This document shows, in pieces, positions 22,229 to 64,000 of a stretch of DNA of 64,000 bases. Where the stretch lies: positions 35,404,921 through 35,468,920 of the forward strand of contig OY365814.1 of NCBI GenBank assembly GCA_959347315.1, written 5' to 3'. The notes beneath the pieces were generated by a model. That model was not told the origin of the DNA. It saw nothing but the letters and a program-made list of their open reading frames with translations, and did no database searches. Source of the DNA: Bimastos eiseni. Taxonomy: Eukaryota; Annelida; Clitellata; Crassiclitellata; Lumbricidae. Made by a program: the position numbers and the translations under genes. The number at the start of each line of letters is the position of its first letter. Position 1 is the first letter of the stretch.

Positions 22229-22256
22229 TGCAGGTAGTGTACGAGTAACAAAGTCG

Positions 22257-25832: not shown

Positions 25833-27661
25833 TTATTTTGACCGTGTTAGGATTTGTTTAAGTGTTCGTTGTTTTGTGTAGGCGGCTACAGTTCTATAAT
25901 TTTTGAATTTTTCAGAGTTGGTTATTATTCTCCGCCATTCTCGGACTAAGTGTGTCGATATCGGACAGTAAGGTATTATTATAGGTAGAATTGGTTTGTC
26001 GTTGTCATTTATGTTTTTTTGAGTATAGTTTGTCCAGATATCATGTTTGGTTTTTCTTAGTAATCGTTTGTTGTATCCCCTTTTGCATAGTATTTTAAAT
26101 AGTATATTACATGTTTTATCGAAGTCCTCTTTAAAGGAGGATAGTCTTTTGAATCTTATTATTTGTGATTTTAGAATGCCCCTAGTGGTGTGTGGTGGGT
26201 GAAATGATGTAGTGTGTAGTAGTTGATGTGTGTCTGTGGCTTTGAAGAAAACCTTGGATTGTAGTGTCGTTTCTGTTAAGTTATTGTGTTTGAATATAGT
26301 AGTGTCTAAGAAATCGACGTGTTGTTCGCTTATAGTTAGGTTGACTTTTATGTTGGGTATGATTGAATTTAGAAATAGTTCGTATTGTTTTAGTTCATCA
26401 AGGGTCCCGGTCCAAACAAAGAAGATATCATCTAAGAAACGGTAGAACAGCGATGGTTTTATATGGAACCCATTCATGGCTCGATTATCGAAGTTGAGTA
26501 AGTATAAATTTGCTAGATTGGGGGCGAAACTTTTGCCCATCGCTGTACCAAAAATTTGGATAAATATTTCATTGTTAAACTCAAAGTCATTATTTTTCAT
26601 TGTTAATTCTAGTAGTTTAATTATTTCATCGTCTGGTCTTCCAAGTCTTGGGTTAGCTTTAAATGTTTTTTTGACTACTGCGATGGTTCTGTTTATGTGC
26701 ATATTAGTGTAAAGTGAGGTAATGTCTCCCGTTACAAGTATACAGTTATGTGGGACTTTTTGATTTTTAACTTTTTTTATAAAATCGTATGTGTCTTTGA
26801 TGTAAGATGCGTGTTTATTAGCTAGCGGTTTTATGTAGTAGTCAATGTAGTCGCTTACTCGTCTGGATTCAGTCCCACAGTCCCCTACTATAGGTCGTCC
26901 GTCAGGCATGTCTGGTTTAGGCCATTTTTCGGTTGGTTTGTGTACTTTTGGTAGTAGGTAGAAGTATCTGTCATTGTCTGAATGTTTAGCTTTGAGGTAA
27001 GTGAGTTGTTTATCAGATATTTTGTTTTTTATTCGTAATGTCTTTAGTGTTTCATTTATTCTATCGCATAATTCGAATTTTCTTGTGTGTTCTATTTTTG
27101 TGTAGTACATGTTGTTGTTTAATTGTCTATAAGCTTCGTGCAGGTAAGCTGTTTTATTCATGATGCAGGTAAGTCCGCCTTTATCTGCGGGTTTGATAAT
27201 TATGTTTTCATTTCTTTTTAGGTTAATCATTGTTAGTTTTTGTTCTTTAGATAGGTTTTGTTTAATGTTTTTAGTGTAGTAGTAGGTTTCTTGTTTGAAA
27301 TTGTCCATTGCTTTTGGGTATTTTTTAAGTATTTTCCCTGTTATTGTGTTCAGTTTTGCGATTGTTAATAATGTGTCGTTTGATATTCTGTTATTTGGTG
27401 GTGTCCAGTCACTTTTATTTATGAATTTTTTTTAAAATTGTGTATTGTCAAATTTCTCTCTGTCGTTAAAGAAATCTTTGAGTTTCATGGATCTAATTAA
27501 TTTGTTAAGGGATTCTGTTATTGCTGATGTGTGTAATTTGTTGTAGGTGGGTATAAAAGACAGTCCTAATTGTAGTAGTGTGTTATCTACCTCAGATAAT
27601 GTATAATTTGATAGATTTATTGTGTTATGTTCCAAATATCCGGGTGGATTTATATTACCTG
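25833..27661 (-). CDS. PLE ORF2: reverse transcriptase without GIY-YIG (one in-frame stop)
   Basis: RNA-dependent DNA polymerase of element 4. The open frame continues from the ORF1 stop in the -1 frame. Its first recognisable residues (LEHNTINLSNYTLSE) start with TTG, and no ATG lies between the ORF1 end and this point. A TAA at 27432-27434, beside an A8 run, interrupts it; downstream 491 codons are open. Motifs: NIIIKPADKGGLTCIM, YFYLLPKVHKPTEKW, GRPIVGDCGTESRRVSDYID, VTGDITSLYTNM (motif A), FGTAMGKSFAPNLANLYLLN (B), FYRFLDDIFFVWTG (C) and TDTHQLLHTTSFHPPHTTRG. It stops after AAYTKQRTLKQILTRSK, exactly where the EN-bearing family enters its Cys-rich linker, so endonuclease loss is complete, not a truncation of DNA. 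A single stop makes current activity doubtful. Confidence 0.88.
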
Positions 27662-27671
27662 TTAGTTTTTT
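27662..27671 (-). promoter_or_regulatory. putative -1 ribosomal frameshift site (A AAA AAC TAA)
   Basis: The heptamer AAAAAAC (27665-27671) is in the X XXY YYZ phase relative to ORF1 and is followed immediately by the ORF1 stop. The -1 frame reads CTA ACA GGT AAT ATA and stays open into the reverse transcriptase, which has no AUG of its own here. Confidence 0.7.
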
Positions 27672-29344
27672 GAGTTAGTGTTTCCCAGGGCAGAGAGCAT
27701 ACTCACCATGATCTTCTTCCGTGTTTCTCCTGTGTAGTGGATCATGTCTGGTCCAGCTTTGACTTCTGCAGTGTCGATCGGATGTAGGTAGGATGGTGCG
27801 AACAGTCGTTCCAGCATGGTGTTAATCTCGGTTAGGGAGCGTATGTCTTCCTTCGGGAGCTGTGGATTAATGGCCACACCCGTCACCATGTGTGTGATGT
27901 GCTTCATTCGGCACATTTCTTTCAAAATTCTGGCTTCTAGTGTTGTTTGTTTTAGGTCATGCTGGCGGTGGTTGATGCCACATGATATGATGACTCGGAG
28001 GTTCTTAGGGGCGTCAGGTAGAGTACTTATTGCCTCCATCATGTGGTGGAAGTGTGCCCCAGGTACGGAGTCTACTTGCCATCCTTCAGGTAAGTCCTCT
28101 TCCTTGGTCCTGGACAGGTTTGAGTCTCCTATTATTAAGTGGGTCGTCTGAGCTGGTGCTTTGAGGGTGATTTGTTGCTTGTCGTAGTGGATTGTTATTC
28201 TGTTTTGTCGTCGTTGTTGTAGGGCCGGTTCGGTTGAGGTTGTTGGTTGTCTTCGTGCGGATGGTTCCTCGGAGGTAGACGGTTCTACGGAGGTTGAGGG
28301 TCGAACAACTTCCGCCCAGGTAGGTGTCGGAGATGGTTGTTGGAGCCCTTCTTCGTCCATCCGTTCAGGTAGGTCTTCGATCGGTAGTATTGCATATTGG
28401 TTTGTGGTAAAGGTTGGTGAAGGTGTGTTGTTCGTCTTTCTTTTCTTCGGGTTCTTTGGCGTGGCCCATTGTGTTGTTCGTTCTGTTTGTCTTTCTCTGT
28501 TTCTACCGATGTTCTGTGCAATTTGTTCTATTTGTTCTTGTAGGTTGTCCATCCTCTTGCCGATCCCCTTCTTCAAATGTTTGTAGGTTATCTCGATCGC
28601 TCTGTCCTTGTCGGTGGGATCGAGCTCCGACAGGTTGCGGTCGGTCGTCGAACGTCTCTCTTCGAGGTGTTGCAACACTCGTTGTCGCAGCCGTTCCCCC
28701 GTGGTGGTGAGTATGTCCCTGAGGTCCCTGCGAAGGGCTTCCGTCGTGTCCGGCGGTGTTATATTGTCAGCGAAGGTGAGTAGTTCTTTGTTCAGTGAGG
28801 GAGGAAGTGTGTCCCAGTTCTTGGTATGGTATTGGATCTGGATCGACCGGAACAGCCATTTGAACATATTCTGGAAATCCGGATTGTTCGAGATGGGGTC
28901 CTGGCTAAAGTGCACGTTCCTCCGAGGTTGTTGTTGTGTATCCGTCCTAGGTAGGTGATGTTGTCTGTTGCTGTAGTTGTGTCTGTTGTTTCCGTTGTAA
29001 GCGTTGTTGTTTCTGTTGTTGCTGTTGTTGCGGTGTTGCGTGTAGTTGTTGTACCTGTTGTTGTTGTAGTAGTTTTTGTGTCTGTTGTAGCTGTTGTTTC
29101 CGTTGCTGTAGCTCCGATTACGTGTACCGTACACCCGTCCGTTGTTGCTATTGGTCCGGTGGTTGGAGCTGTTGCTCCTGTTCCGGTAGCGAGGCTGTCC
29201 CGGTCTCCCTCCGGTCCTCGGTTGTTGTTCTCTACTCTGGAACCGTCTGTTCCCTCCACGCGTCTGACCCTGATAAGGGCCGTGGTCATCGCGTCGGTAA
29301 GGGGTCCTACCTCTGTCTCCGCGATATTCACGATACTCTGGCAT
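27662..29344 (-). CDS. PLE ORF1: RG-rich, helical region, SGNH-hydrolase-like domain
   Basis: 560 codons from the ATG at 29344 (MPEYREYRGDRGRTPY); the open frame upstream has only a non-ATG start. The N-terminal 130 residues are rich in Arg, Gly, Asn and Tyr and probably bind RNA. A conserved helical region follows (NPDFQNMFKWLF, NWDTLPPSL, DPTDKDRAIEITYKHL), shared with the 819-aa ORF1 of the tandem family. A Pro/Ser/Thr linker leads to an SGNH-like domain. On the 574-codon frame numbering this has IIGDSN (Ser422), PGAHF, GINH (Asn472) and PDMIHYT (Asp547, His550), the four conserved blocks of GDSL/SGNH hydrolases. It ends NSKN with A AAA AAC TAA. An esterase-like role is inference; such a domain is known in ORF1 of CR1-type LINEs. 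Confidence 0.85.
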   Translation of the reverse strand: MPEYREYRGDRGRTPYRRDDHGPYQGQTRGGNRRFQSREQQPRTGGRPGQPRYRNRSNSSNHRTNSNNGRVYGTRNRSYSNGNNSYNRHKNYYNNNRYNNYTQHRNNSNNRNNNAYNGNNRHNYSNRQHHLPRTDTQQQPRRNVHFSQDPISNNPDFQNMFKWLFRSIQIQYHTKNWDTLPPSLNKELLTFADNITPPDTTEALRRDLRDILTTTGERLRQRVLQHLEERRSTTDRNLSELDPTDKDRAIEITYKHLKKGIGKRMDNLQEQIEQIAQNIGRNRERQTERTTQWATPKNPKKRKTNNTPSPTFTTNQYAILPIEDLPERMDEEGLQQPSPTPTWAEVVRPSTSVEPSTSEEPSARRQPTTSTEPALQQRRQNRITIHYDKQQITLKAPAQTTHLIIGDSNLSRTKEEDLPEGWQVDSVPGAHFHHMMEAISTLPDAPKNLRVIISCGINHRQHDLKQTTLEARILKEMCRMKHITHMVTGVAINPQLPKEDIRSLTEINTMLERLFAPSYLHPIDTAEVKAGPDMIHYTGETRKKIMVSMLSALGNTNSKN

Positions 29345-31301: not shown

Positions 31302-31311
31302 AAAAAACTAA
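31302..31311 (+). promoter_or_regulatory. conserved -1 frameshift heptamer in the inverted PLE
   Basis: ACA AAA AAC TAA, as in the intact copies. The -1 frame (CTA AAT AAC ACA) remains open to ATG AAC CTC of ORF2 despite nucleotide divergence, so the overlap frame has been kept coding. Confidence 0.7.
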
Positions 31312-47184: not shown

Positions 47185-47794
47185 TAAAAAATCACGAAGT
47201 GATTGTTAAGCACGGGCACAATTCATTGATGGGAGAATCACAGATGGCGGGATAGATATGATTATATTATAATATGTTATTATATGAAACATGAAACAAG
47301 GCTCGCCGACTAGTTGTCAGATTTTCGAAGAAGTTTACATCGCACACCTTGGTATGTGACAGACAGTTGCGTATGACAGGTATGGTGTCCCACCATGCGG
47401 GCGGAACCCCATCCCGCTGTCACGCCAGACCTCCCTAACTACTTACTGCATGCCGACGGGCATGTTGTCCCACCATGCGGGTAAGGACATCATCCGCGCT
47501 CGCCCACGCAAGGCCCTGAAGATCTACAAACGAAAGATTATGCAATCTCGGACTGTGAACGACGTCCTCCTGCGTATGACAGGTATGGTGGGGGGAGAAA
47601 ATTGTTATGGGGACGACCACCATCAGCGCCGTCACGCAAGGCTCTGAAATTCAACAGTCAAAGTTAGACCCCTGATGGAACTAAAGCGGGTTCCCTCCTC
47701 CTTATTATTAACCAGGCTTGGGACTGGCACACTGGCGCTGGAACCTCCTAATTCGGATGGTATGCCAGAGTGGCGGAGTTGCCTACTTTTAGTG
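47185..47794 (-). mobile_element. non-autonomous PLE derivative, 5'-truncated second copy
   Basis: Appears identical to 45556-46163, then breaks at CCTACTTTTAG|TG and continues as pure TTAGGG. A truncated insertion capped by telomere addition, joined head-to-tail to the 5' end of the full copy. Confidence 0.9.
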
Positions 47795-48702: not shown

Positions 48703-50994
48703 TTAGGTCAGGTGTTGTCTGGTGGTGTAGTCTGGTGGTCGGTTGATCCCGTGAGGTTGGTACGTCATCAATTCTTGTCGCCATTGTTGTTGTAGATCCA
48801 GGAGGCGGTACGGCAGAGAGGACGGTTGGTACCTAAAAAGAACCATTTCCAGTGCAGCAACGGTGACTATCGGCATAATTGTAATGTTTTTTAGTGAGTG
48901 GTTGTTTGAATTGAAGTGGTTTGATAATGGGTTATTATGCTTATTTGTGATATTGTGGATATGTTCTAATAGGCCTTCTACTACTTTACCTTGTGTATGG
49001 TCTATATATTGTTTGTTGCAGGCGCTACAAGTAATTAAGTAGATTGTATTTGTGCTTTGGCAGTCTAGTTGCTTGATTATGGTGTATTTGCGGCGTGTGT
49101 ATGTGCTTGAGTATGTTTTGGAGACTGTAATGTATGGGCATGACTGACAGTTAGGTATGTTACACTTGTTTGAGCCTATGTTCGTATTTTGTTTTGGTTT
49201 TATGGGCCTATTTCTACGTGGAGCAAGTAATTCTTTTAGGTTCCTATTTCTAGAGTAGGCTGGTATTATTCGGTAATGTTTTAGTGTATTGTCTTGCATG
49301 AGGAGTTTTTTCCATTCATAGAATATTCGCATAGATAGTGGATTGTATGGTATGACTACTGGGAGGAGGTTGTTATCAGTTTTTTTAGTTTTAAGATTCT
49401 TTTCACGTCTGGTCCATATGTTGTTTTTAGTTTCCCTTAGCAGTCTTTTGCTATATCCCCTGTGTATTAAACTGTCAAATAGTGTTTTACATGAGTAGTC
49501 GAAGTCCGTTTTATATGAGGATAGTCTTTTAAATCTTAAAATTTGCGATTTCAGGATGCCAGTGAATGTGTGTTTAGGATGAAATGATGAACTGTGCAGT
49601 AATTGGTGTGTGTCTGTCTGTTTAAAATAAACTCTTGTCTGCAGTGTAGTCCTGTCCTGGTCTGTGTTTTTAAAGATTGTTGTGTCAAGGAAGTTAATTT
49701 CAGTGTCATTGTATGTTAAGGTTATTGTAATGTCAGGGATTAAAGAATTTAGAAATGCTTCATATTGTTTTAGCTCCTCCACAGTGCCAGGCCATACAAA
49801 GAAGATATCATCAAGAAAACGGAAGAAGTCAAGTGGGTGAATGTGGAAGGCCTCCATTGCTTTTTTGTCAAATTCTACCAGGTACATGTTTGCTAAGTTA
49901 GGTGCAAAGGTTTTTCCCATAGCTGTCCCAAAAATTTGTAGGAAGAGTTTGTTGCAGAAGGAGAAGTCGTTATTTTTCATTGCTATTTCTAAGAGTTCTA
50001 AGAGTTCGGCGTCTGGTCTATTAGCTTTTGGATTTTTATGGAAGAATTCTTTTACAGTAGTGATAGTTCTATCTATGTTCATATTTGTGTATAGTGCTGT
50101 GACATCGCCTGTGACTAAGATATAGTGTGGTTTTATTGTAATGTTTTTGATTCTGTTTATAAAGTCATAGGTGTCCTTAATGTATGATGGATGTTTATTG
50201 GCGAGGGGTTTGAGGTAGGAGTCAATATATTCACTTATTCGCCTAGATTCTGTCGCGCAATCTCCTACTATAGGACGTCCTTCCGGCATATCCGGTAGTG
50301 TCCATTTATTTATATGTTTATGAATTTTAGGTAGGAGGTAGAATTTACGTTCTTTATCTGTAGGTTTGGCGCTGAGGTACGAATATTGTTCTCGGCTAAT
50401 GTGCTTAGATTTACGTAGCCTATTTAAGATTTCATTTATCCTAGGTATAGTTTCATTCTTAAGAGGCGTTTCAATGATTTTGTAATACTTAGTGTTATCT
50501 AATTGTCTACTTGCTTCTATGTTATATGATTGTTTGTCTAGGACGCATACCATTCCCCCTTTGTCCGCTGGTTTGATTATTATATTTTCATTATTGCGTA
50601 ATCTATGTATTGCTTTTTGTTGATTTTTAGTCAGATTATTAGTCTTATTTCTAAAGGTGTAGGTGTCATTAACTAATGGATATTCATGTAGTATGCTTTC
50701 TGTGGTTTCTTTTAGCTTATCAATTAATTCTAGGGTGTTTTCAGATAAATGTTCATCTTTAGGGATCCAAGTGCTAGGTTCTGTGAAGTTCCTTTTAGTT
50801 TTTCTTGTTTGACTATCATTTTGGCTTGAATCATGATTTTTAAAATAATCTCTTAATTTGATTGATCTGGTTAATTTGTTCAAACTGGTTTCGATGTCTT
50901 TAAAGTAGAGTTTGTTGGTGGTGGGTATGAAGCCTAGTCCTAGATCAAGGAGGCTCGTATCCTCCAGGCTTAAGGGTTGTTTTGAGAGGTTCAT
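48703..50994 (-). CDS. PLE ORF2: reverse transcriptase with altered GIY-YIG domain (unit 1)
   Basis: 763 codons, uninterrupted. Copies element RNA into DNA. N-terminal region 1-130; NENIIIKPADKGGMVCVLDK (135-154); YLLPKIHK (219-226); GRPIVGDCATESRRISEYID (239-258); motif A VTGDVTALYTNM (294-305, Asp297); motif B FGTAMGKTFAPNLANMYLVE (355-374); motif C FFRFLDDIFFVW (390-401, Asp395/396); INFLDTTIFK; thumb to about 590. Cys linker CNIPNCQSC (611-619), then the GIY-YIG fold: IYLITCSACNKQYIDH (651-666) and VVEGLLEHIHNI (671-682). Canonical PLEs have YVGET and an Arg four residues before the His. Here these are Asp665, His666 and Gly674, so nuclease activity is doubtful. ORF2 is entered from ORF1 by a likely -1 frameshift; the ATG at 50994 lies in that frame. 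Confidence 0.92.
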   Translation of the reverse strand: MNLSKQPLSLEDTSLLDLGLGFIPTTNKLYFKDIETSLNKLTRSIKLRDYFKNHDSSQNDSQTRKTKRNFTEPSTWIPKDEHLSENTLELIDKLKETTESILHEYPLVNDTYTFRNKTNNLTKNQQKAIHRLRNNENIIIKPADKGGMVCVLDKQSYNIEASRQLDNTKYYKIIETPLKNETIPRINEILNRLRKSKHISREQYSYLSAKPTDKERKFYLLPKIHKHINKWTLPDMPEGRPIVGDCATESRRISEYIDSYLKPLANKHPSYIKDTYDFINRIKNITIKPHYILVTGDVTALYTNMNIDRTITTVKEFFHKNPKANRPDAELLELLEIAMKNNDFSFCNKLFLQIFGTAMGKTFAPNLANMYLVEFDKKAMEAFHIHPLDFFRFLDDIFFVWPGTVEELKQYEAFLNSLIPDITITLTYNDTEINFLDTTIFKNTDQDRTTLQTRVYFKQTDTHQLLHSSSFHPKHTFTGILKSQILRFKRLSSYKTDFDYSCKTLFDSLIHRGYSKRLLRETKNNIWTRREKNLKTKKTDNNLLPVVIPYNPLSMRIFYEWKKLLMQDNTLKHYRIIPAYSRNRNLKELLAPRRNRPIKPKQNTNIGSNKCNIPNCQSCPYITVSKTYSSTYTRRKYTIIKQLDCQSTNTIYLITCSACNKQYIDHTQGKVVEGLLEHIHNITNKHNNPLSNHFNSNNHSLKNITIMPIVTVAALEMVLFRYQPSSLPYRLLDLQQQWRQELMTYQPHGINRPPDYTTRQHLT

Positions 50995-51053
50995 AGTGTA
51001 TTTTGAGAGAGTGTGTGTGTGAGAGTTATTTTCTGTATTTTGAATTGTGTTTT

Positions 51054-51063
51054 TTAGTTTTTT
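51054..51063 (-). promoter_or_regulatory. putative -1 ribosomal frameshift site (unit 1)
   Basis: ACA AAA AAC TAA: heptamer A AAA AAC at 51057-51063 in slippery phase, with the ORF1 stop next. The -1 frame (CTA AAA AAC ACA ATT) is open for 21 codons up to the ORF2 ATG and onward. No obvious strong downstream pseudoknot was seen. Identical sites at 56853-56862 and 62652-62661. Confidence 0.7.
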
Positions 51064-53513
51064 GTCATGCTTTGGATGGTGCGTACTATTTTACCTAGAA
51101 TTTGTTGTTGTGTTGGTTGTGTGTAGTGCAACATGTCTGGGTCAGTCCTAACCGCCTCCGAGGGTATGGGTGGTATGTATGTGGCCGTAGTTAGGTGTTT
51201 GATACCGTTGTTGATTGCTGTGATGTTGTTATGGTGTTGTAGAGAGAAGTTCGGGCTGGTTGAGACCCCCACTGTGAGAACCACCTTCGCCTTCATGTGG
51301 GCCGTTATCAAGCGTACCTTCAGGGCCTCCAGTGGTCGGGTCAGAGAAAAATCGTCCCTATGGTTGATGCCCAGGGCGAAGATGAGGTGCTCAAGTTGAT
51401 GGTCGGGGAGTGCATGTTGGAGATGTGCAACGTTATAGAAGTTGCCCCCGGACAGGCTTACCAGTTGGAAACCCTCAGGGAGGTCGGTGCCCGTGATGTG
51501 CTTGAAGTTGGAGTCCGCAATGATGAGATGCCGCGTGTCTGCCCTAAGCTGAACCCTCCATTGATCCCTATTGAACCCGCGCAGGTAGGAGAACCGTGGA
51601 GGGGGAGAGAGGGTGGGATTCGGCTGGGGTGGAGATGTGGGTCTCTGAAGGGGTGCCGTAGTAATAGTAGTTTTTGCCAGGGCGGCTGGTTCAGAAGATG
51701 CAATGGACCTGGTGGTCAGGCGTCTAGTGCGTTGAGGAATAGGGTTAGGGTTAGTTGTAGGGTTAGTAAGTTCAGTAGAGGTTCCAGTCAGAGTAATGAG
51801 AGAGTGTGAGGTAAGAGAGCGTTCAGGAAGTAGTTGAGTAGGTGTAGGAAGTTTAGGGTTAGTGGTAGGGTTAGTAGGTACAGTAAGAGTAGGATGAGGG
51901 TGAGTAGATGTAGAAGGTTTAGGGTTAGTAGTAGGGTTAGTAGGTGAAGTCGAAGGCGTGAAGGAGGGTGTAGGAAGTTTAGGGTTAGTGGTAGGGTTCG
52001 TAGGTACAGTAAGAGTAGGATGAGGGTGAGTAGATGTAGAAGGTTTAGGGTTAGTAGTAGGGTTAGTAGGTGAAGTCGAAGGTGTGAAGGAGAGTGTAGG
52101 AGCAGTGGTGAGTTTGGAAGATTTAGGAAGTTTCCTTACCGGAGAAGGAGTGTTATCAGAGTCAGAATCAGAGTCACCAGCAAGTTCAGCAAGGATGTAA
52201 ATGGTAGGAGAGTCAGAGGAAGTATTGTCAGAATTAGGAAGGTCAGGTGAGATGTCAGAAAGATTGAGAGAGCCAGGACAGAAGCGGTTGTGTGTGGGGA
52301 TTGGTTCGGGTGAGGTGCTGATGCAAACTTTCTTGCAAGGGTTGGTCACCTTACGGAATCCTTGAGGATCCGTCCCCTTACCTTTACCTGCCCTACTCCC
52401 TAAGTCCATCACCGTAACTGCCTCACTCTCTAAGTCCATTACCGTACCTGCCTCACTCCCTAAGTCCATCACCGTACCTGTCTCAACCCCTACGTCTCTC
52501 ACTCCTATCCCCGCACCTGTATCTACACCCCTCACTCTTACCACCTTCTCCACCTCCCTGACCACCTTCTCCACCTCCCTGACCACCTTCTCCACCTCCC
52601 TGACTCCTATCACCCTTGCCTCAGCCTGGACCAGGCGTCTGACCTCAGCCTCGGTTACCTTACGGCCGAGGTTGCCAGTGATCTGTTTCACAACCACGTT
52701 GATAATGGCCTCCTTATCCCTTGGGTTGGCCCCCCTGAGAAGAGTGATGGTAGATTGCAGTTGGGAAGAGAAGTGAAGCTGAAGGCGTGCCGTTAGTTCA
52801 GTGCCCGAGTTTTCGAGGATGGAGGAGATGTCCTTGCGGACTGCAGGGGTCGGATATACCGGGTTTATGCTGCAGGCAACCGTTTGCAAATCGCGTTGGA
52901 TGGATCTGGGAAGAGACTGCCAGTTAGATTGTTGCCTGCGCAGTTGGGTGGCGCGGTACAAGGCCTTGCAGATGGTGGAGAAATCCGGGTTGTCAGAGCG
53001 GAGGCGAGGTTCAGAGATTCGAGGTAGTGCAGTAGAGTGCCCTGGTCTGTTGAAGTGAGGGAGTTTCAGAGACATGAGAGGGGGGAGTGATCCTGAAGGG
53101 GGGTTGTGCTGAAGTGGGCGAGACCAGGCCGAGGTGGGAGGAAGTGGTAGTGTAGAGTGAGGAAGTGTAGGGTGAGGAGGAGGTGGTGGAGGAGGTAGAG
53201 TGGGGAGGGAACGAGGTGGTAGGGTTTGGAACAACGGTGGGATGCTATGGGTCATAGATGACGCCATTTTGGAAGAAGGTAGACCCTTCTCCAGCAGGTT
53301 CAAACGACCACTGAAGGTCTCCATGGACTTGTTCATTCTCTCCATGAGCATCTCCATCCGCTGAAAGTCAAAGGTAGGGGGAGGAGGAGGAGGAGGAAAG
53401 GTGAGTGCAGAAGCAGCATTGTTATTGTATTGATACTTGCCCGGTTGTAGGTGTTGTTGGAAGGTGAATCCATTCGTTGGCGGCTGTCGGGTCTGGAACT
53501 GTTGGCGATGCAT
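51054..53513 (-). CDS. PLE ORF1: coiled-coil, helical region, SGNH-like domain (unit 1)
   Basis: 819 codons from an ATG (MHRQQFQTRQ). Pro-rich N-terminus with a short amphipathic helix (MEMLMERMNKSMETFSGRL, 53-71). Conserved region about 172-295 (NPDFSTICKALYRATQL, NWQSLPRSI, ANPRDKEAIINVVVKQITG), homologous to the ORF1 of element 4. Heptad-like VREVEKV repeats 304-326. A Pro/Thr/Asn linker about 470-600 with a duplicated block of about 42 residues rich in NPTTNP, encoded by TTAGGG-like DNA. C-terminal SGNH-like domain 661-819 with IIADSN (Ser668), SGGNF, GINH (Asn717) and DMLH (Asp793, His796). All four SGNH positions are kept. Possibly an RNA-binding and particle-forming protein with an esterase-like domain. 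Its stop lies 59 nt before the ORF2 ATG. Confidence 0.85.
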   Translation of the reverse strand: MHRQQFQTRQPPTNGFTFQQHLQPGKYQYNNNAASALTFPPPPPPPTFDFQRMEMLMERMNKSMETFSGRLNLLEKGLPSSKMASSMTHSIPPLFQTLPPRSLPTLPPPPPPPHPTLPHSTLPLPPTSAWSRPLQHNPPSGSLPPLMSLKLPHFNRPGHSTALPRISEPRLRSDNPDFSTICKALYRATQLRRQQSNWQSLPRSIQRDLQTVACSINPVYPTPAVRKDISSILENSGTELTARLQLHFSSQLQSTITLLRGANPRDKEAIINVVVKQITGNLGRKVTEAEVRRLVQAEARVIGVREVEKVVREVEKVVREVEKVVRVRGVDTGAGIGVRDVGVETGTVMDLGSEAGTVMDLESEAVTVMDLGSRAGKGKGTDPQGFRKVTNPCKKVCISTSPEPIPTHNRFCPGSLNLSDISPDLPNSDNTSSDSPTIYILAELAGDSDSDSDNTPSPVRKLPKSSKLTTAPTLSFTPSTSPTNPTTNPKPSTSTHPHPTLTVPTNPTTNPKLPTPSFTPSTSPTNPTTNPKPSTSTHPHPTLTVPTNPTTNPKLPTPTQLLPERSLTSHSLITLTGTSTELTNPTTNPNPIPQRTRRLTTRSIASSEPAALAKTTITTAPLQRPTSPPQPNPTLSPPPRFSYLRGFNRDQWRVQLRADTRHLIIADSNFKHITGTDLPEGFQLVSLSGGNFYNVAHLQHALPDHQLEHLIFALGINHRDDFSLTRPLEALKVRLITAHMKAKVVLTVGVSTSPNFSLQHHNNITAINNGIKHLTTATYIPPIPSEAVRTDPDMLHYTQPTQQQILGKIVRTIQSMTKN

Positions 53514-54501: not shown

Positions 54502-56793
54502 TTAGGTCAGGTGTTGTCTGGTGGTGTAGTCTGGTGGTCGGTTGATCCCGTGAGGTTGGTACGTCATCAATTCTTGTCGCCATTGTTGTTGTAGATCCAG
54601 GAGGCGGTACGGCAGAGAGGACGGTTGGTACCTAAAAAGAACCATTTCCAGTGCAGCAACGGTGACTATCGGCATAATTGTAATGTTTTTTAGTGAGTGG
54701 TTGTTTGAATTGAAGTGGTTTGATAATGGGTTATTATGCTTATTTGTGATATTGTGGATATGTTCTAATAGGCCTTCTACTACTTTACCTTGTGTATGGT
54801 CTATATATTGTTTGTTGCAGGCGCTACAAGTAATTAAGTAGATTGTATTTGTGCTTTGGCAGTCTAGTTGCTTGATTATGGTGTATTTGCGGCGTGTGTA
54901 TGTGCTTGAGTATGTTTTGGAGACTGTAATGTATGGGCATGACTGACAGTTAGGTATGTTACACTTGTTTGAGCCTATGTTCGTATTTTGTTTTGGTTTT
55001 ATGGGCCTATTTCTACGTGGAGCAAGTAATTCTTTTAGGTTCCTATTTCTAGAGTAGGCTGGTATTATTCGGTAATGTTTTAGTGTATTGTCTTGCATGA
55101 GGAGTTTTTTCCATTCATAGAATATTCGCATAGATAGTGGATTGTATGGTATGACTACTGGGAGGAGGTTGTTATCAGTTTTTTTAGTTTTAAGATTCTT
55201 TTCACGTCTGGTCCATATGTTGTTTTTAGTTTCCCTTAGCAGTCTTTTGCTATATCCCCTGTGTATTAAACTGTCAAATAGTGTTTTACATGAGTAGTCG
55301 AAGTCCGTTTTATATGAGGATAGTCTTTTAAATCTTAAAATTTGCGATTTCAGGATGCCAGTGAATGTGTGTTTAGGATGAAATGATGAACTGTGCAGTA
55401 ATTGGTGTGTGTCTGTCTGTTTAAAATAAACTCTTGTCTGCAGTGTAGTCCTGTCCTGGTCTGTGTTTTTAAAGATTGTTGTGTCAAGGAAGTTAATTTC
55501 AGTGTCATTGTATGTTAAGGTTATTGTAATGTCAGGGATTAAAGAATTTAGAAATGCTTCATATTGTTTTAGCTCCTCCACAGTGCCAGGCCATACAAAG
55601 AAGATATCATCAAGAAAACGGAAGAAGTCAAGTGGGTGAATGTGGAAGGCCTCCATTGCTTTTTTGTCAAATTCTACCAGGTACATGTTTGCTAAGTTAG
55701 GTGCAAAGGTTTTTCCCATAGCTGTCCCAAAAATTTGTAGGAAGAGTTTGTTGCAGAAGGAGAAGTCGTTATTTTTCATTGCTATTTCTAAGAGTTCTAA
55801 GAGTTCGGCGTCTGGTCTATTAGCTTTTGGATTTTTATGGAAGAATTCTTTTACAGTAGTGATAGTTCTATCTATGTTCATATTTGTGTATAGTGCTGTG
55901 ACATCGCCTGTGACTAAGATATAGTGTGGTTTTATTGTAATGTTTTTGATTCTGTTTATAAAGTCATAGGTGTCCTTAATGTATGATGGATGTTTATTGG
56001 CGAGGGGTTTGAGGTAGGAGTCAATATATTCACTTATTCGCCTAGATTCTGTCGCGCAATCTCCTACTATAGGACGTCCTTCCGGCATATCCGGTAGTGT
56101 CCATTTATTTATATGTTTATGAATTTTAGGTAGGAGGTAGAATTTACGTTCTTTATCTGTAGGTTTGGCGCTGAGGTACGAATATTGTTCTCGGCTAATG
56201 TGCTTAGATTTACGTAGCCTATTTAAGATTTCATTTATCCTAGGTATAGTTTCATTCTTAAGAGGCGTTTCAATGATTTTGTAATACTTAGTGTTATCTA
56301 ATTGTCTACTTGCTTCTATGTTATATGATTGTTTGTCTAGGACGCATACCATTCCCCCTTTGTCCGCTGGTTTGATTATTATATTTTCATTATTGCGTAA
56401 TCTATGTATTGCTTTTTGTTGATTTTTAGTCAGATTATTAGTCTTATTTCTAAAGGTGTAGGTGTCATTAACTAATGGATATTCATGTAGTATGCTTTCT
56501 GTGGTTTCTTTTAGCTTATCAATTAATTCTAGGGTGTTTTCAGATAAATGTTCATCTTTAGGGATCCAAGTGCTAGGTTCTGTGAAGTTCCTTTTAGTTT
56601 TTCTTGTTTGACTATCATTTTGGCTTGAATCATGATTTTTAAAATAATCTCTTAATTTGATTGATCTGGTTAATTTGTTCAAACTGGTTTCGATGTCTTT
56701 AAAGTAGAGTTTGTTGGTGGTGGGTATGAAGCCTAGTCCTAGATCAAGGAGGCTCGTATCCTCCAGGCTTAAGGGTTGTTTTGAGAGGTTCAT
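54502..56793 (-). CDS. PLE ORF2 reverse transcriptase (unit 2)
   Basis: Protein identical over all 763 residues to that of unit 1, including FLDD in motif C and the altered YIDH/EGLLEH residues of the GIY-YIG domain. Confidence 0.92.
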   Translation of the reverse strand: MNLSKQPLSLEDTSLLDLGLGFIPTTNKLYFKDIETSLNKLTRSIKLRDYFKNHDSSQNDSQTRKTKRNFTEPSTWIPKDEHLSENTLELIDKLKETTESILHEYPLVNDTYTFRNKTNNLTKNQQKAIHRLRNNENIIIKPADKGGMVCVLDKQSYNIEASRQLDNTKYYKIIETPLKNETIPRINEILNRLRKSKHISREQYSYLSAKPTDKERKFYLLPKIHKHINKWTLPDMPEGRPIVGDCATESRRISEYIDSYLKPLANKHPSYIKDTYDFINRIKNITIKPHYILVTGDVTALYTNMNIDRTITTVKEFFHKNPKANRPDAELLELLEIAMKNNDFSFCNKLFLQIFGTAMGKTFAPNLANMYLVEFDKKAMEAFHIHPLDFFRFLDDIFFVWPGTVEELKQYEAFLNSLIPDITITLTYNDTEINFLDTTIFKNTDQDRTTLQTRVYFKQTDTHQLLHSSSFHPKHTFTGILKSQILRFKRLSSYKTDFDYSCKTLFDSLIHRGYSKRLLRETKNNIWTRREKNLKTKKTDNNLLPVVIPYNPLSMRIFYEWKKLLMQDNTLKHYRIIPAYSRNRNLKELLAPRRNRPIKPKQNTNIGSNKCNIPNCQSCPYITVSKTYSSTYTRRKYTIIKQLDCQSTNTIYLITCSACNKQYIDHTQGKVVEGLLEHIHNITNKHNNPLSNHFNSNNHSLKNITIMPIVTVAALEMVLFRYQPSSLPYRLLDLQQQWRQELMTYQPHGINRPPDYTTRQHLT

Positions 56794-56852: not shown

Positions 56853-59312
56853 TTAGTTTTTTGTCATGCTTTGGATGGTGCGTACTATTTTACCTAGAAT
56901 TTGTTGTTGTGTTGGTTGTGTGTAGTGCAACATGTCTGGGTCAGTCCTAACCGCCTCCGAGGGTATGGGTGGTATGTATGTGGCCGTAGTTAGGTGTTTG
57001 ATACCGTTGTTGATTGCTGTGATGTTGTTATGGTGTTGTAGAGAGAAGTTCGGGCTGGTTGAGACCCCCACTGTGAGAACCACCTTCGCCTTCATGTGGG
57101 CCGTTATCAAGCGTACCTTCAGGGCCTCCAGTGGTCGGGTCAGAGAAAAATCGTCCCTATGGTTGATGCCCAGGGCGAAGATGAGGTGCTCAAGTTGATG
57201 GTCGGGGAGTGCATGTTGGAGATGTGCAACGTTATAGAAGTTGCCCCCGGACAGGCTTACCAGTTGGAAACCCTCAGGGAGGTCGGTGCCCGTGATGTGC
57301 TTGAAGTTGGAGTCCGCAATGATGAGATGCCGCGTGTCTGCCCTAAGCTGAACCCTCCATTGATCCCTATTGAACCCGCGCAGGTAGGAGAACCGTGGAG
57401 GGGGAGAGAGGGTGGGATTCGGCTGGGGTGGAGATGTGGGTCTCTGAAGGGGTGCCGTAGTAATAGTAGTTTTTGCCAGGGCGGCTGGTTCAGAAGATGC
57501 AATGGACCTGGTGGTCAGGCGTCTAGTGCGTTGAGGAATAGGGTTAGGGTTAGTTGTAGGGTTAGTAAGTTCAGTAGAGGTTCCAGTCAGAGTAATGAGA
57601 GAGTGTGAGGTAAGAGAGCGTTCAGGAAGTAGTTGAGTAGGTGTAGGAAGTTTAGGGTTAGTGGTAGGGTTAGTAGGTACAGTAAGAGTAGGATGAGGGT
57701 GAGTAGATGTAGAAGGTTTAGGGTTAGTAGTAGGGTTAGTAGGTGAAGTCGAAGGCGTGAAGGAGGGTGTAGGAAGTTTAGGGTTAGTGGTAGGGTTCGT
57801 AGGTACAGTAAGAGTAGGATGAGGGTGAGTAGATGTAGAAGGTTTAGGGTTAGTAGTAGGGTTAGTAGGTGAAGTCGAAGGTGTGAAGGAGAGTGTAGGA
57901 GCAGTGGTGAGTTTGGAAGATTTAGGAAGTTTCCTTACCGGAGAAGGAGTGTTATCAGAGTCAGAATCAGAGTCACCAGCAAGTTCAGCAAGGATGTAAA
58001 TGGTAGGAGAGTCAGAGGAAGTATTGTCAGAATTAGGAAGGTCAGGTGAGATGTCAGAAAGATTGAGAGAGCCAGGACAGAAGCGGTTGTGTGTGGGGAT
58101 TGGTTCGGGTGAGGTGCTGATGCAAACTTTCTTGCAAGGGTTGGTCACCTTACGGAATCCTTGAGGATCCGTCCCCTTACCTTTACCTGCCCTACTCCCT
58201 AAGTCCATCACCGTAACTGCCTCACTCTCTAAGTCCATTACCGTACCTGCCTCACTCCCTAAGTCCATCACCGTACCTGTCTCAACCCCTACGTCTCTCA
58301 CTCCTATCCCCGCACCTGTATCTACACCCCTCACTCTTACCACCTTCTCCACCTCCCTGACCACCTTCTCCACCTCCCTGACCACCTTCTCCACCTCCCT
58401 GACTCCTATCACCCTTGCCTCAGCCTGGACCAGGCGTCTGACCTCAGCCTCGGTTACCTTACGGCCGAGGTTGCCAGTGATCTGTTTCACAACCACGTTG
58501 ATAATGGCCTCCTTATCCCTTGGGTTGGCCCCCCTGAGAAGAGTGATGGTAGATTGCAGTTGGGAAGAGAAGTGAAGCTGAAGGCGTGCCGTTAGTTCAG
58601 TGCCCGAGTTTTCGAGGATGGAGGAGATGTCCTTGCGGACTGCAGGGGTCGGATATACCGGGTTTATGCTGCAGGCAACCGTTTGCAAATCGCGTTGGAT
58701 GGATCTGGGAAGAGACTGCCAGTTAGATTGTTGCCTGCGCAGTTGGGTGGCGCGGTACAAGGCCTTGCAGATGGTGGAGAAATCCGGGTTGTCAGAGCGG
58801 AGGCGAGGTTCAGAGATTCGAGGTAGTGCAGTAGAGTGCCCTGGTCTGTTGAAGTGAGGGAGTTTCAGAGACATGAGAGGGGGGAGTGATCCTGAAGGGG
58901 GGTTGTGCTGAAGTGGGCGAGACCAGGCCGAGGTGGGAGGAAGTGGTAGTGTAGAGTGAGGAAGTGTAGGGTGAGGAGGAGGTGGTGGAGGAGGTAGAGT
59001 GGGGAGGGAACGAGGTGGTAGGGTTTGGAACAACGGTGGGATGCTATGGGTCATAGATGACGCCATTTTGGAAGAAGGTAGACCCTTCTCCAGCAGGTTC
59101 AAACGACCACTGAAGGTCTCCATGGACTTGTTCATTCTCTCCATGAGCATCTCCATCCGCTGAAAGTCAAAGGTAGGGGGAGGAGGAGGAGGAGGAAAGG
59201 TGAGTGCAGAAGCAGCATTGTTATTGTATTGATACTTGCCCGGTTGTAGGTGTTGTTGGAAGGTGAATCCATTCGTTGGCGGCTGTCGGGTCTGGAACTG
59301 TTGGCGATGCAT
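56853..59312 (-). CDS. PLE ORF1, SGNH-like (unit 2)
   Basis: Protein identical over all 819 residues to unit 1. Ends with the slippery A AAA AAC (56856-56862) and TAA. Confidence 0.86.
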   Translation of the reverse strand: MHRQQFQTRQPPTNGFTFQQHLQPGKYQYNNNAASALTFPPPPPPPTFDFQRMEMLMERMNKSMETFSGRLNLLEKGLPSSKMASSMTHSIPPLFQTLPPRSLPTLPPPPPPPHPTLPHSTLPLPPTSAWSRPLQHNPPSGSLPPLMSLKLPHFNRPGHSTALPRISEPRLRSDNPDFSTICKALYRATQLRRQQSNWQSLPRSIQRDLQTVACSINPVYPTPAVRKDISSILENSGTELTARLQLHFSSQLQSTITLLRGANPRDKEAIINVVVKQITGNLGRKVTEAEVRRLVQAEARVIGVREVEKVVREVEKVVREVEKVVRVRGVDTGAGIGVRDVGVETGTVMDLGSEAGTVMDLESEAVTVMDLGSRAGKGKGTDPQGFRKVTNPCKKVCISTSPEPIPTHNRFCPGSLNLSDISPDLPNSDNTSSDSPTIYILAELAGDSDSDSDNTPSPVRKLPKSSKLTTAPTLSFTPSTSPTNPTTNPKPSTSTHPHPTLTVPTNPTTNPKLPTPSFTPSTSPTNPTTNPKPSTSTHPHPTLTVPTNPTTNPKLPTPTQLLPERSLTSHSLITLTGTSTELTNPTTNPNPIPQRTRRLTTRSIASSEPAALAKTTITTAPLQRPTSPPQPNPTLSPPPRFSYLRGFNRDQWRVQLRADTRHLIIADSNFKHITGTDLPEGFQLVSLSGGNFYNVAHLQHALPDHQLEHLIFALGINHRDDFSLTRPLEALKVRLITAHMKAKVVLTVGVSTSPNFSLQHHNNITAINNGIKHLTTATYIPPIPSEAVRTDPDMLHYTQPTQQQILGKIVRTIQSMTKN

Positions 59313-60300: not shown

Positions 60301-62592
60301 TTAGGTCAGGTGTTGTCTGGTGGTGTAGTCTGGTGGTCGGTTGATCCCGTGAGGTTGGTACGTCATCAATTCTTGTCGCCATTGTTGTTGTAGATCCAGG
60401 AGGCGGTACGGCAGAGAGGACGGTTGGTACCTAAAAAGAACCATTTCCAGTGCAGCAACGGTGACTATCGGCATAATTGTAATGTTTTTTAGTGAGTGGT
60501 TGTTTGAATTGAAGTGGTTTGATAATGGGTTATTATGCTTATTTGTGATATTGTGGATATGTTCTAATAGGCCTTCTACTACTTTACCTTGTGTATGGTC
60601 TATATATTGTTTGTTGCAGGCGCTACAAGTAATTAAGTAGATTGTATTTGTGCTTTGGCAGTCTAGTTGCTTGATTATGGTGTATTTGCGGCGTGTGTAT
60701 GTGCTTGAGTATGTTTTGGAGACTGTAATGTATGGGCATGACTGACAGTTAGGTATGTTACACTTGTTTGAGCCTATGTTCGTATTTTGTTTTGGTTTTA
60801 TGGGCCTATTTCTACGTGGAGCAAGTAATTCTTTTAGGTTCCTATTTCTAGAGTAGGCTGGTATTATTCGGTAATGTTTTAGTGTATTGTCTTGCATGAG
60901 GAGTTTTTTCCATTCATAGAATATTCGCATAGATAGTGGATTGTATGGTATGACTACTGGGAGGAGGTTGTTATCAGTTTTTTTAGTTTTAAGATTCTTT
61001 TCACGTCTGGTCCATATGTTGTTTTTAGTTTCCCTTAGCAGTCTTTTGCTATATCCCCTGTGTATTAAACTGTCAAATAGTGTTTTACATGAGTAGTCGA
61101 AGTCCGTTTTATATGAGGATAGTCTTTTAAATCTTAAAATTTGCGATTTCAGGATGCCAGTGAATGTGTGTTTAGGATGAAATGATGAACTGTGCAGTAA
61201 TTGGTGTGTGTCTGTCTGTTTAAAATAAACTCTTGTCTGCAGTGTAGTCCTGTCCTGGTCTGTGTTTTTAAAGATTGTTGTGTCAAGGAAGTTAATTTCA
61301 GTGTCATTGTATGTTAAGGTTATTGTAATGTCAGGGATTAAAGAATTTAGAAATGCTTCATATTGTTTTAGCTCCTCCACAGTGCCAGGCCATACAAAGA
61401 AGATATCATCAAGAAAACGGAAGAAGTCAAGTGGGTGAATGTGGAAGGCCTCCATTGCTTTTTTGTCAAATTCTACCAGGTACATGTTTGCTAAGTTAGG
61501 TGCAAAGGTTTTTCCCATAGCTGTCCCAAAAATTTGTAGGAAGAGTTTGTTGCAGAAGGAGAAGTCGTTATTTTTCATTGCTATTTCTAAGAGTTCTAAG
61601 AGTTCGGCGTCTGGTCTATTAGCTTTTGGATTTTTATGGAAGAATTCTTTTACAGTAGTGATAGTTCTATCTATGTTCATATTTGTGTATAGTGCTGTGA
61701 CATCGCCTGTGACTAAGATATAGTGTGGTTTTATTGTAATGTTTTTGATTCTGTTTATAAAGTCATAGGTGTCCTTAATGTATGATGGATGTTTATTGGC
61801 GAGGGGTTTGAGGTAGGAGTCAATATATTCACTTATTCGCCTAGATTCTGTCGCGCAATCTCCTACTATAGGACGTCCTTCCGGCATATCCGGTAGTGTC
61901 CATTTATTTATATGTTTATGAATTTTAGGTAGGAGGTAGAATTTACGTTCTTTATCTGTAGGTTTGGCGCTGAGGTACGAATATTGTTCTCGGCTAATGT
62001 GCTTAGATTTACGTAGCCTATTTAAGATTTCATTTATCCTAGGTATAGTTTCATTCTTAAGAGGCGTTTCAATGATTTTGTAATACTTAGTGTTATCTAA
62101 TTGTCTACTTGCTTCTATGTTATATGATTGTTTGTCTAGGACGCATACCATTCCCCCTTTGTCCGCTGGTTTGATTATTATATTTTCATTATTGCGTAAT
62201 CTATGTATTGCTTTTTGTTGATTTTTAGTCAGATTATTAGTCTTATTTCTAAAGGTGTAGGTGTCATTAACTAATGGATATTCATGTAGTATGCTTTCTG
62301 TGGTTTCTTTTAGCTTATCAATTAATTCTAGGGTGTTTTCAGATAAATGTTCATCTTTAGGGATCCAAGTGCTAGGTTCTGTGAAGTTCCTTTTAGTTTT
62401 TCTTGTTTGACTATCATTTTGGCTTGAATCATGATTTTTAAAATAATCTCTTAATTTGATTGATCTGGTTAATTTGTTCAAACTGGTTTCGATGTCTTTA
62501 AAGTAGAGTTTGTTGGTGGTGGGTATGAAGCCTAGTCCTAGATCAAGGAGGCTCGTATCCTCCAGGCTTAAGGGTTGTTTTGAGAGGTTCAT
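60301..62592 (-). CDS. PLE ORF2 reverse transcriptase (unit 3)
   Basis: Protein identical to units 1 and 2. Confidence 0.92.
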   Translation of the reverse strand: MNLSKQPLSLEDTSLLDLGLGFIPTTNKLYFKDIETSLNKLTRSIKLRDYFKNHDSSQNDSQTRKTKRNFTEPSTWIPKDEHLSENTLELIDKLKETTESILHEYPLVNDTYTFRNKTNNLTKNQQKAIHRLRNNENIIIKPADKGGMVCVLDKQSYNIEASRQLDNTKYYKIIETPLKNETIPRINEILNRLRKSKHISREQYSYLSAKPTDKERKFYLLPKIHKHINKWTLPDMPEGRPIVGDCATESRRISEYIDSYLKPLANKHPSYIKDTYDFINRIKNITIKPHYILVTGDVTALYTNMNIDRTITTVKEFFHKNPKANRPDAELLELLEIAMKNNDFSFCNKLFLQIFGTAMGKTFAPNLANMYLVEFDKKAMEAFHIHPLDFFRFLDDIFFVWPGTVEELKQYEAFLNSLIPDITITLTYNDTEINFLDTTIFKNTDQDRTTLQTRVYFKQTDTHQLLHSSSFHPKHTFTGILKSQILRFKRLSSYKTDFDYSCKTLFDSLIHRGYSKRLLRETKNNIWTRREKNLKTKKTDNNLLPVVIPYNPLSMRIFYEWKKLLMQDNTLKHYRIIPAYSRNRNLKELLAPRRNRPIKPKQNTNIGSNKCNIPNCQSCPYITVSKTYSSTYTRRKYTIIKQLDCQSTNTIYLITCSACNKQYIDHTQGKVVEGLLEHIHNITNKHNNPLSNHFNSNNHSLKNITIMPIVTVAALEMVLFRYQPSSLPYRLLDLQQQWRQELMTYQPHGINRPPDYTTRQHLT

Positions 62593-62651: not shown

Positions 62652-64000
62652 TTAGTTTTTTGTCATGCTTTGGATGGTGCGTACTATTTTACCTAGAATT
62701 TGTTGTTGTGTTGGTTGTGTGTAGTGCAACATGTCTGGGTCAGTCCTAACCGCCTCCGAGGGTATGGGTGGTATGTATGTGGCCGTAGTTAGGTGTTTGA
62801 TACCGTTGTTGATTGCTGTGATGTTGTTATGGTGTTGTAGAGAGAAGTTCGGGCTGGTTGAGACCCCCACTGTGAGAACCACCTTCGCCTTCATGTGGGC
62901 CGTTATCAAGCGTACCTTCAGGGCCTCCAGTGGTCGGGTCAGAGAAAAATCGTCCCTATGGTTGATGCCCAGGGCGAAGATGAGGTGCTCAAGTTGATGG
63001 TCGGGGAGTGCATGTTGGAGATGTGCAACGTTATAGAAGTTGCCCCCGGACAGGCTTACCAGTTGGAAACCCTCAGGGAGGTCGGTGCCCGTGATGTGCT
63101 TGAAGTTGGAGTCCGCAATGATGAGATGCCGCGTGTCTGCCCTAAGCTGAACCCTCCATTGATCCCTATTGAACCCGCGCAGGTAGGAGAACCGTGGAGG
63201 GGGAGAGAGGGTGGGATTCGGCTGGGGTGGAGATGTGGGTCTCTGAAGGGGTGCCGTAGTAATAGTAGTTTTTGCCAGGGCGGCTGGTTCAGAAGATGCA
63301 ATGGACCTGGTGGTCAGGCGTCTAGTGCGTTGAGGAATAGGGTTAGGGTTAGTTGTAGGGTTAGTAAGTTCAGTAGAGGTTCCAGTCAGAGTAATGAGAG
63401 AGTGTGAGGTAAGAGAGCGTTCAGGAAGTAGTTGAGTAGGTGTAGGAAGTTTAGGGTTAGTGGTAGGGTTAGTAGGTACAGTAAGAGTAGGATGAGGGTG
63501 AGTAGATGTAGAAGGTTTAGGGTTAGTAGTAGGGTTAGTAGGTGAAGTCGAAGGCGTGAAGGAGGGTGTAGGAAGTTTAGGGTTAGTGGTAGGGTTCGTA
63601 GGTACAGTAAGAGTAGGATGAGGGTGAGTAGATGTAGAAGGTTTAGGGTTAGTAGTAGGGTTAGTAGGTGAAGTCGAAGGTGTGAAGGAGAGTGTAGGAG
63701 CAGTGGTGAGTTTGGAAGATTTAGGAAGTTTCCTTACCGGAGAAGGAGTGTTATCAGAGTCAGAATCAGAGTCACCAGCAAGTTCAGCAAGGATGTAAAT
63801 GGTAGGAGAGTCAGAGGAAGTATTGTCAGAATTAGGAAGGTCAGGTGAGATGTCAGAAAGATTGAGAGAGCCAGGACAGAAGCGGTTGTGTGTGGGGATT
63901 GGTTCGGGTGAGGTGCTGATGCAAACTTTCTTGCAAGGGTTGGTCACCTTACGGAATCCTTGAGGATCCGTCCCCTTACCTTTACCTGCCCTACTCCCTA
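62652..64000 (-). CDS. PLE ORF1, SGNH-like (unit 3, partial)
   Basis: Open from the window edge to the stop at 62652. Residues corresponding to about 371-819 of unit 1, including the SGNH-like domain and the A AAA AAC TAA end. The upstream start is outside the window; the ATG at 63947 is internal. Confidence 0.85.
   Translation of the reverse strand, partial: GSRAGKGKGTDPQGFRKVTNPCKKVCISTSPEPIPTHNRFCPGSLNLSDISPDLPNSDNTSSDSPTIYILAELAGDSDSDSDNTPSPVRKLPKSSKLTTAPTLSFTPSTSPTNPTTNPKPSTSTHPHPTLTVPTNPTTNPKLPTPSFTPSTSPTNPTTNPKPSTSTHPHPTLTVPTNPTTNPKLPTPTQLLPERSLTSHSLITLTGTSTELTNPTTNPNPIPQRTRRLTTRSIASSEPAALAKTTITTAPLQRPTSPPQPNPTLSPPPRFSYLRGFNRDQWRVQLRADTRHLIIADSNFKHITGTDLPEGFQLVSLSGGNFYNVAHLQHALPDHQLEHLIFALGINHRDDFSLTRPLEALKVRLITAHMKAKVVLTVGVSTSPNFSLQHHNNITAINNGIKHLTTATYIPPIPSEAVRTDPDMLHYTQPTQQQILGKIVRTIQSMTKN

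Follow-up and report, generated by a model that had tools for sequence, protein, structure and literature searches.

Retroelement copies and slippery heptamers in the window

The window, i.e., the whole stretch of DNA analysed here, is the 64-kb terminal part of contig C9 in an assembly of 660 Mb. It carries an array of tandem retroelement units (family F1), a copy of a separate EN-less family (F4) and decayed element copies (Table 1). Matches to AAAAAACTAA occur five times in the window compared with 0.77 expected, and this number was reached in 0 of 100 shuffles. As the sequence-only reading had claimed, ORF1 ends in A AAA AAC TAA, with ORF2 in the -1 frame: at all four minus-strand sites the motif is in frame and terminates a long ORF1, which measures 819 aa at two sites and 560 aa at another and is truncated by the contig end at the fourth.

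The three tandem occurrences listed in that reading are all present. However, the units are identical (5799/5799 bases, and 3702/3702 bases present in the third unit) and thus count as one observation, which leaves only three independent sites in the window, including the decayed fragment at 31302. The claim that the -1 frame is open into ORF2 in every case proved too broad with regard to two window copies. In the 31302 fragment, where only the last part of ORF1 is present, the -1 frame is free of stops as far as the ORF2 AUG, just as had been stated for the overlap in this inverted copy, and stops after 54 codons. The -1 frame of the F4 copy stays open over 79 codons, meets one stop at about 27432-27434 and then resumes in the same frame as reverse transcriptase (RT); this nonsense codon is missing from the sister copies on C13 and C5. 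The earlier list of copies comprised all five heptamer sites and missed a decayed minus-strand copy at about 21400-22400. This copy belongs to subfamily F3b (see below), has telomeric repeats inside ORF1 and leader, carries stops in the -1 leader and lacks a canonical heptamer.

Table 1 Element features in the 64-kb window
Feature	Position	Strand	Remark
Matches to AAAAAACTAA	27662-27671(-), 31302-31311(+), 51054-51063(-), 56853-56862(-), 62652-62661(-)		
ORF1, tandem family F1 (819 aa)	51054..53513	-	SGNH hydrolase-like domain, C-terminal, about residues 655-819; fold predicted on the homologous F4 domain
Slippery heptamer A_AAA_AAC, F1 unit 1	51054..51063	-	ORF1 stop TAA directly after
F1 -1 frame leader, heptamer to ORF2 AUG	50995..51063	-	KKLKNTIQNTENNSHTHTLSKYT; stop-free
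F1 ORF2, 763 aa from AUG	48703..50994	-	RT, presumably Penelope-type, and decayed C-terminal GIY-YIG-like domain
F1 unit 2 ORF1	56853..59312	-	identical to unit 1
F1 unit 2 slippery heptamer and stop	56853..56862	-	
F1 unit 2 ORF2	54502..56793	-	
F1 unit 3 ORF1	62652..64000	-	cut by contig end
F1 unit 3 slippery heptamer and stop	62652..62661	-	
F1 unit 3 ORF2	60301..62592	-	
ORF1, EN-less family F4 (560 aa)	27662..29344	-	SGNH domain, about residues 395-560
F4 slippery heptamer A_AAA_AAC and stop TAA	27662..27671	-	
F4 ORF2, -1 frame	25833..27671	-	no AUG ahead of conserved start; one nonsense codon, about 27432-27434
Heptamer and stop in decayed inverted F1 fragment	31302..31311	+	

Location at contig ends and element families

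A genome search with the EN-less ORF1 yielded at least 81 places, and one with the N-terminal 200 residues of tandem ORF2 at least 83. Among the 81 listed ORF1 places, 49 are no more than 70 kb away from a contig end, an array on C13 accounts for 15, and 17 are internal. All 49 contig-end places point their 3' ends inward, as for elements primed on the chromosome's 3' overhang. Tandem arrangement recurs, with head-to-tail 5799-bp units in the window and a run of 13 consecutive ORF2 places on C2. The 15 ORF1 places of the C13 array, at 133-184 kb, have the opposite orientation to those at the other ends. This array (G000:C13:133000-184000), which is large, consists of F2 and F4 elements and lies towards the left end of C13, may stem from an inversion, a fusion or an assembly error.

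Nine families have a readable ORF1-ORF2 junction (Table 2). They were grouped by the analyst from the very junctions that were scored, and the heptamers in several loci were first spotted by eye. A canonical -1 slippery heptamer is present in the ORF1 frame in 9/9 of these families, with the RT in -1; it is A_AAA_AAC in seven and U_UUA_AAC in two. The F1 copy on C8 retains the heptamer, while its stop is replaced by TAC.

Table 2 Junctions of the nine families and identity to the start of F1 ORF2
Family	Place	Heptamer and following codons	Identity to F1 ORF2 start
F1	window tandem; C2, C8	AAAAAAC TAA	
F2	C9, C13	AAAAAAC TAA	69%
F3	C2, C8, C12, C15	AAAAAAC TAA	53-54%
F4 (EN-less)	C9, C13, C5; diverged copy C3	AAAAAAC TAA	46-47%
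F5	C8	TTTAAAC TAA	45%
F6	C9	AAAAAAC TAA	42%
F7	C7	AAAAAAC TTC TAG	43%
F8	C7	TTTAAAC TAA	
F9	C4	AAAAAAC TAG	45%

An automatic junction scan returned the canonical heptamer in 48 of 59 rows, several of which are repeats of one copy. Four of the 11 non-canonical rows are F3b and one is L002, a relative from outside this genome; in the others (four F2 rows, F1 on C8 and F7) the scan took another in-phase stop. Because of these wrong stops and repeated copies, family counts were taken from individually read junctions. Left out of the nine families were L078, L083 and L085 (ORF1 junction not seen), L079 (telomeric repeats cap the 5' end), L075 (a second F6 copy without ORF1) and F3b (scored as heptamer-less).

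Stop-free long ORF2 copies occur only in F1-F4 and F6, while ORF2 is damaged in the F5, F7, F8 and F9 copies. AAAAAAC was found in 35/35 listed places that have the junction in hand and an ORF2 frame of at least 600 aa, stop-free in the matched part (5 F1, 5 F2, 17 F3, 7 F4, 1 F6), a cut-off that was picked after the list had been seen. Many of these copies are tandem repeats identical to one another, which reduces the independent observations to five families. Three further ORF2 places of at least 600 aa without stops (C6:7604926, C4:46602102 and C5:6984) come without a junction and are outside the 35.

The F3 subfamily F3b reads ACAAAAC, which is not slippery by rule, at six loci (C9:5368, C6 left, C6 right, C17, C1 and C3), and a seventh copy, the one at about 21.4-22.4 kb in the window, gives the same reading at the protein level, with stops in the leader. 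Nowhere in F3b does ORF2 reach 600 aa without a stop; C6 right comes closest with 585 aa, lacking the first 36 residues. On the other hand, damage to a copy does not entail loss of the heptamer, which is kept in damaged copies of F3 (C2), F4 (window, C3, C4, C5, C13), F5, F7, F8 and F9. In the F3 leader (L053-L069), telomeric hexamers are read as Asn-Pro repeats and the length varies by copy, e.g., 53, 57 and 61 residues.

Reading frames on either side of the heptamer

With one copy taken per family, the 247 codons between the heptamer and the conserved start of RT contain no stop in the -1 frame, 27 in the zero frame and 26 in the +1 frame. Shuffled leaders have 14.2 stops on average and were stop-free in 0 of 2000 cases, irrespective of whether F3 with its telomeric hexamers was included. 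In the 450 codons before the heptamer, the zero frame has a single stop (in F8, a truncated copy), while the -1 and the +1 frame have 20 each. The open frame therefore switches register at the heptamer. A random frame between the ORFs and stops in the -1 frame of otherwise intact copies had been named beforehand as observations that would speak against frameshifting. Neither was encountered in the nine families and their 247 leader codons, and among the 35 places with long stop-free ORF2 frames 0/35 lack the heptamer.

As a background, a canonical heptamer stands directly upstream of 37 of 7652 stops in the window (both strands, elements included). The leader shows a modest and mixed excess at third codon positions (F1-F2 4, 9, 12; F4-F8 4, 4, 9; F4-F4b 2, 1, 3; F1 C9-C8 2, 0, 2).

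Proteins encoded by ORF1 and ORF2

The label 'SGNH-type' initially given to ORF1 gains support from structure prediction, in which the F4 domain adopts an SGNH fold. All four catalytic residues S, G, N and H are kept in seven of eight aligned ORF1 domains; L076 (F6) is without S, N and H. Among PDB sequences, the ORF1 profile matches 4c1b (ZfL2-1) best, albeit weakly, with an E value of 0.035. When the SGNH region of F4 ORF1 was compared with 5.8 billion proteins, none of the 200 candidates reached E<=0.001. The idea that the middle domain of ORF1 arose from a gag-like protein was considered and found no support: the helical model is confident, yet there is no PDB match at E<=0.001.

For ORF2, whose RT we take to be of Penelope type, 2795 related proteins were found at E<=0.001, and precomputed annotation places a GIY-YIG domain in many of the 120 matches listed. 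The GIY-YIG score is above the cut-off in L001, just under it in P0003 and lower in P0138. F4 ORF2 terminates ahead of this domain. F1, F2 and F3 (window 48703-50994(-); L087, L088, L089) have a GIY-YIG-like domain without the glycine and the arginine, both presumably functional, that are kept in P0003, P0004 and P0012. At the level of these alignments, it looks as if the endonuclease has been lost in the telomere-bound lineages.

A natural in-frame fusion was sought at C7:4669 (open frame of 1697 aa) and rejected, since the frame in the fetched part (L084) consists of telomeric repeats that translate to Leu-Thr or Asn-Pro. Other long open frames that are candidates for in-frame fusions are C13:163001 (1131 aa) and C5:6984 (2469 aa).

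Relatives outside this genome

Relatives were detected on four contigs from prokaryote assemblies, which by inference represent host or other contamination. Viral contigs gave no relatives with query A1 or the L001 RT, and no relatives were found in phages. L001, which is 35% identical, is endonuclease-bearing: GIY-YIG is above the Pfam cut-off and RVT_1 just below. In its two tandem copies an SGNH-like ORF1 frame is open for 609 codons, with U_UUA_AAC four codons ahead of the stop, and the RT frame is open from 21 codons upstream. The L001 ORF1 recovers the telomeric ORF1s at an E value of 1.8e-9. L002 has its RT in -1 but lacks a heptamer and shows a stop-start overlap, ATGTTAG. In L004 (24%), the RT is in -1 to the upstream frame and none of the ten heptamers searched is present, while the upstream reading of L003 is in the RT frame itself.

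We also examined 149 metagenomic proteins. A leader could be delimited in 62, and KKL occurs in 7 of the 37 leaders of at least 18 aa. Six of these (P0014, P0019, P0022, P0024, P0031, P0139) make up 6/8 of the leaders of at least 18 aa in the close clade, as assigned by the analyst and at the protein level only; the seventh, P0122, is outside that clade. FKP and FKL in the leaders of P0037 and P0070 are too few to weigh.

Translation of the reverse transcriptase

The genome-wide frame, stop and heptamer counts support the interpretation offered by the sequence-only reading, and we consider it very probable (roughly 0.87) that programmed -1 ribosomal frameshifting supplies the RT of the telomeric elements in the form of an ORF1-RT fusion. 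Ribosomes would translate ORF1 with its helical middle domain and SGNH esterase-like domain. Most would proceed past A_AAA_AAC or U_UUA_AAC and terminate at the stop that usually follows directly, while a minority would slip one base back, read the leader (KKL or FKL ...) and enter the RT. The outcome would be much ORF1 protein and little ORF1-RT, like retroviral gag and gag-pol. Slippage, its efficiency and the action of the fusion as a working RT are what we infer from the arrangement of the frames.

In principle, ORF2 could instead be translated separately from its own AUG, either through reinitiation beyond the ORF1 stop or through leaky scanning, in which case the heptamer would be incidental. 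In F1 and F2, an AUG indeed adjoins the NLS motif at the ORF2 start, and the overlap ATGTTAG in L002 is the layout expected for termination-reinitiation, a coupling known in other retrotransposons. However, in F3, F4, F5, F7 and F8 the RT frame contains no AUG between the preceding in-frame stop and the conserved NLS motif, as had correctly been stated for the EN-less family, and the first AUG in the RT frame of L001 is 370 codons downstream. F9 has three AUGs, the nearest 24 codons ahead of the motif, and the two of F6 are both upstream of the heptamer. Furthermore, the residue preceding NLS in relatives is M, I, L or V, the pattern of an internal hydrophobic residue, while close relatives start with MNLS. 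Judging from these start regions, AUG initiation of ORF2 is possible for some families and would be no general solution; a start at a non-AUG codon is a possible variant. Separate initiation also gives no reason for a conserved heptamer followed by a stop-free -1 leader, and we regard it as unlikely.

Another explanation would be that the motif is functionless and that chromosome-end paralogues simply inherited the junction. The nine families are all homologous, and many copies are identical tandem repeats. However, the mean pairwise identity of the nine families, aligned without gaps at the site, amounts to 83% for the heptamer as opposed to 30% upstream and 36% downstream, and the information content of the heptamer plus 2 is 1.69 bits compared with 0.42 upstream and 0.61 downstream. 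The change to TTTAAAC still obeys the slippery rule, and the heptamer-less subfamily F3b is decayed. Mere shared descent is thus a poor explanation that we hardly credit. The exchange between A_AAA_AAC and U_UUA_AAC keeps the slippery rule and alters the amino acids, which argues that it is probably the nucleotide signal itself that is favoured. Equally hard to credit is transcriptional slippage on the A6 run, yielding mRNAs with ORF1 and ORF2 in one frame: A6 is present in 7/9 families, but F5, F8 and L001 have TTTAAAC with runs of at most 3, and a polymerase would need no X_XXY_YYZ phase.

If frameshifting is the true mechanism, it would explain how the RT is produced in families without an ORF2 start codon. 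Its conservation would imply a fixed ORF1:RT ratio together with an ORF1-RT fusion, hence a retrovirus-like particle logic. RT expression in telomeric retrotransposons would become testable by one reporter.

Downstream RNA structure and stop context

Minimum free energy (MFE) folding of the 50, 80 and 120 nt 3' of the heptamer, which covers secondary structure only, revealed no RNA structure downstream in F1-F3, where the values for 80 nt range from 0.0 to -5.3 kcal/mol. In F4-F9 no fold clearly exceeded the shuffles, the lowest z being -2.1, in F8. The absence of a strong downstream pseudoknot, conceded from the outset as a weakness, holds even more strongly than stated: in the tandem family the 80 nt downstream come to 0.0 kcal/mol in terms of secondary structure. 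A stimulatory structure 5-9 nt downstream was not found by MFE folding in the telomeric families. In L001, a 6-nt spacer after UUUAAAC is followed by a hairpin of -22.4 kcal/mol, which corresponds to a z of only about -1 against shuffles of its GC-rich sequence. In the telomeric families, the site would therefore act as a bare heptamer.

The stop adjoins the heptamer in 8/9 families, and a C stands immediately 5' of the heptamer in 8/9. Some plant viruses have slip sites with adjacent stops. It is our conjecture that the adjacent stop and the preceding C may aid slippage in place of an RNA structure. A gag-pol-like -1 frameshift could be ancestral to Penelope-like elements with an SGNH ORF1 and common to dispersed endonuclease-bearing and telomere-dedicated lineages, with the latter needing no RNA structure since the heptamer-adjacent stop and the preceding base would stimulate via a termination pause. 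We put this joint reading forward tentatively and would sooner bet against it than on it.

Comparison with known systems

Penelope-like elements, retroelements related to telomerase, have usually been described with a single ORF. The proposed mechanism is a known one, in an element group where no description of it was found. A literature search pairing Penelope with frameshift or 'slippery' terms gave no paper on frameshifting in these elements by title or abstract; it covered few subscription papers, and a prior description is therefore possible. In the consulted parts of PMC5408684, PMC6431247 and PMC4700185, frameshifts are mentioned only for other elements or as decay.

The sites resemble retroviral gag-pro and gag-pol -1 sites in that the heptamers are the same, the upstream ORF is in excess and the -1 frame adds enzymes, as far as the sources drawn upon describe those sites. 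Passages of PMC5009743 name A_AAA_AAC and U_UUA_AAC among the most shifty sites on mammalian ribosomes, and extracts from PMC3835772 report AAAAAAC in MMTV, BLV and HTLV and UUUAAAC in coronaviruses. In contrast to the retroviral sites, those described here are found in another element class, lack a downstream hairpin in the telomeric families, follow an ORF1 with SGNH and usually have the stop directly after the heptamer.

Athena/Terminon elements of bdelloid rotifer telomeres are similar in several respects. They, too, are RT elements at chromosome ends with tandem and telomeric-repeat-capped copies and GDSL (SGNH) ORFs (PMC5408684 and PMC6431247, in part), and the elements studied here share the chromosome-end location and the missing endonuclease. 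The present elements differ in that the units of about 4-6 kb have two ORFs and the telomeric repeats are TTAGGG; Rfam scans of the window gave no hammerhead match. A frameshift in Athena goes unmentioned in the sections of the same two papers that were available. EN+ Penelope/Poseidon elements share the homologous RT, a C-terminal GIY-YIG in relatives and tandem copies; according to the portions seen of PMC11167929 and PMC3846280, they consist of a single ORF, as opposed to the two ORFs with the RT in -1 reported here.

The SGNH fold in ORF1 is also reminiscent of the ORF1 esterase of CR1/L2 LINEs (ZfL2-1, PDB 4c1b). Parts of PMC3905857 state that a ZfL2-1-type esterase occurs in Penelope-like elements and do not discuss frameshifting. 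Like HeT-A and TART of Drosophila, the present elements are telomere-dedicated retrotransposons. Unlike them, they are not non-LTR elements, and the relevant parts of PMC5009743 name no -1 heptamer between gag and RT for HeT-A/TART; there, HeT-A gag is said to require a frameshift and expression of the TART polyprotein to be unknown.

Repeats neighbouring the tandem array

A search for hammerhead ribozymes gave no Rfam match in the window. Two twister-P1 ribozyme-like matches were recorded at 46064-46151(-) and 47693-47780(-), with 31.8 bits (under the gathering score of 67.2) and an E value of 0.0065. They are 1629 bp apart, and near-identical flanking stretches share that spacing. The same 22-mer occurs in the twister-bearing stretch (45561, 47190) and at the 3' end of each tandem element (48511, 54310, 60109); it holds the perfect hairpin AATCAC-GAA-GTGATT and adjoins telomeric repeats at 45561 and 48511. 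On the basis of this shared motif, the twister-bearing stretch may be a non-autonomous partner that shares its 3' end with the tandem elements. A near-perfect (TTAGGG)118 array, from 47789 to 48500, separates this stretch from the 3' end of the tandem elements.
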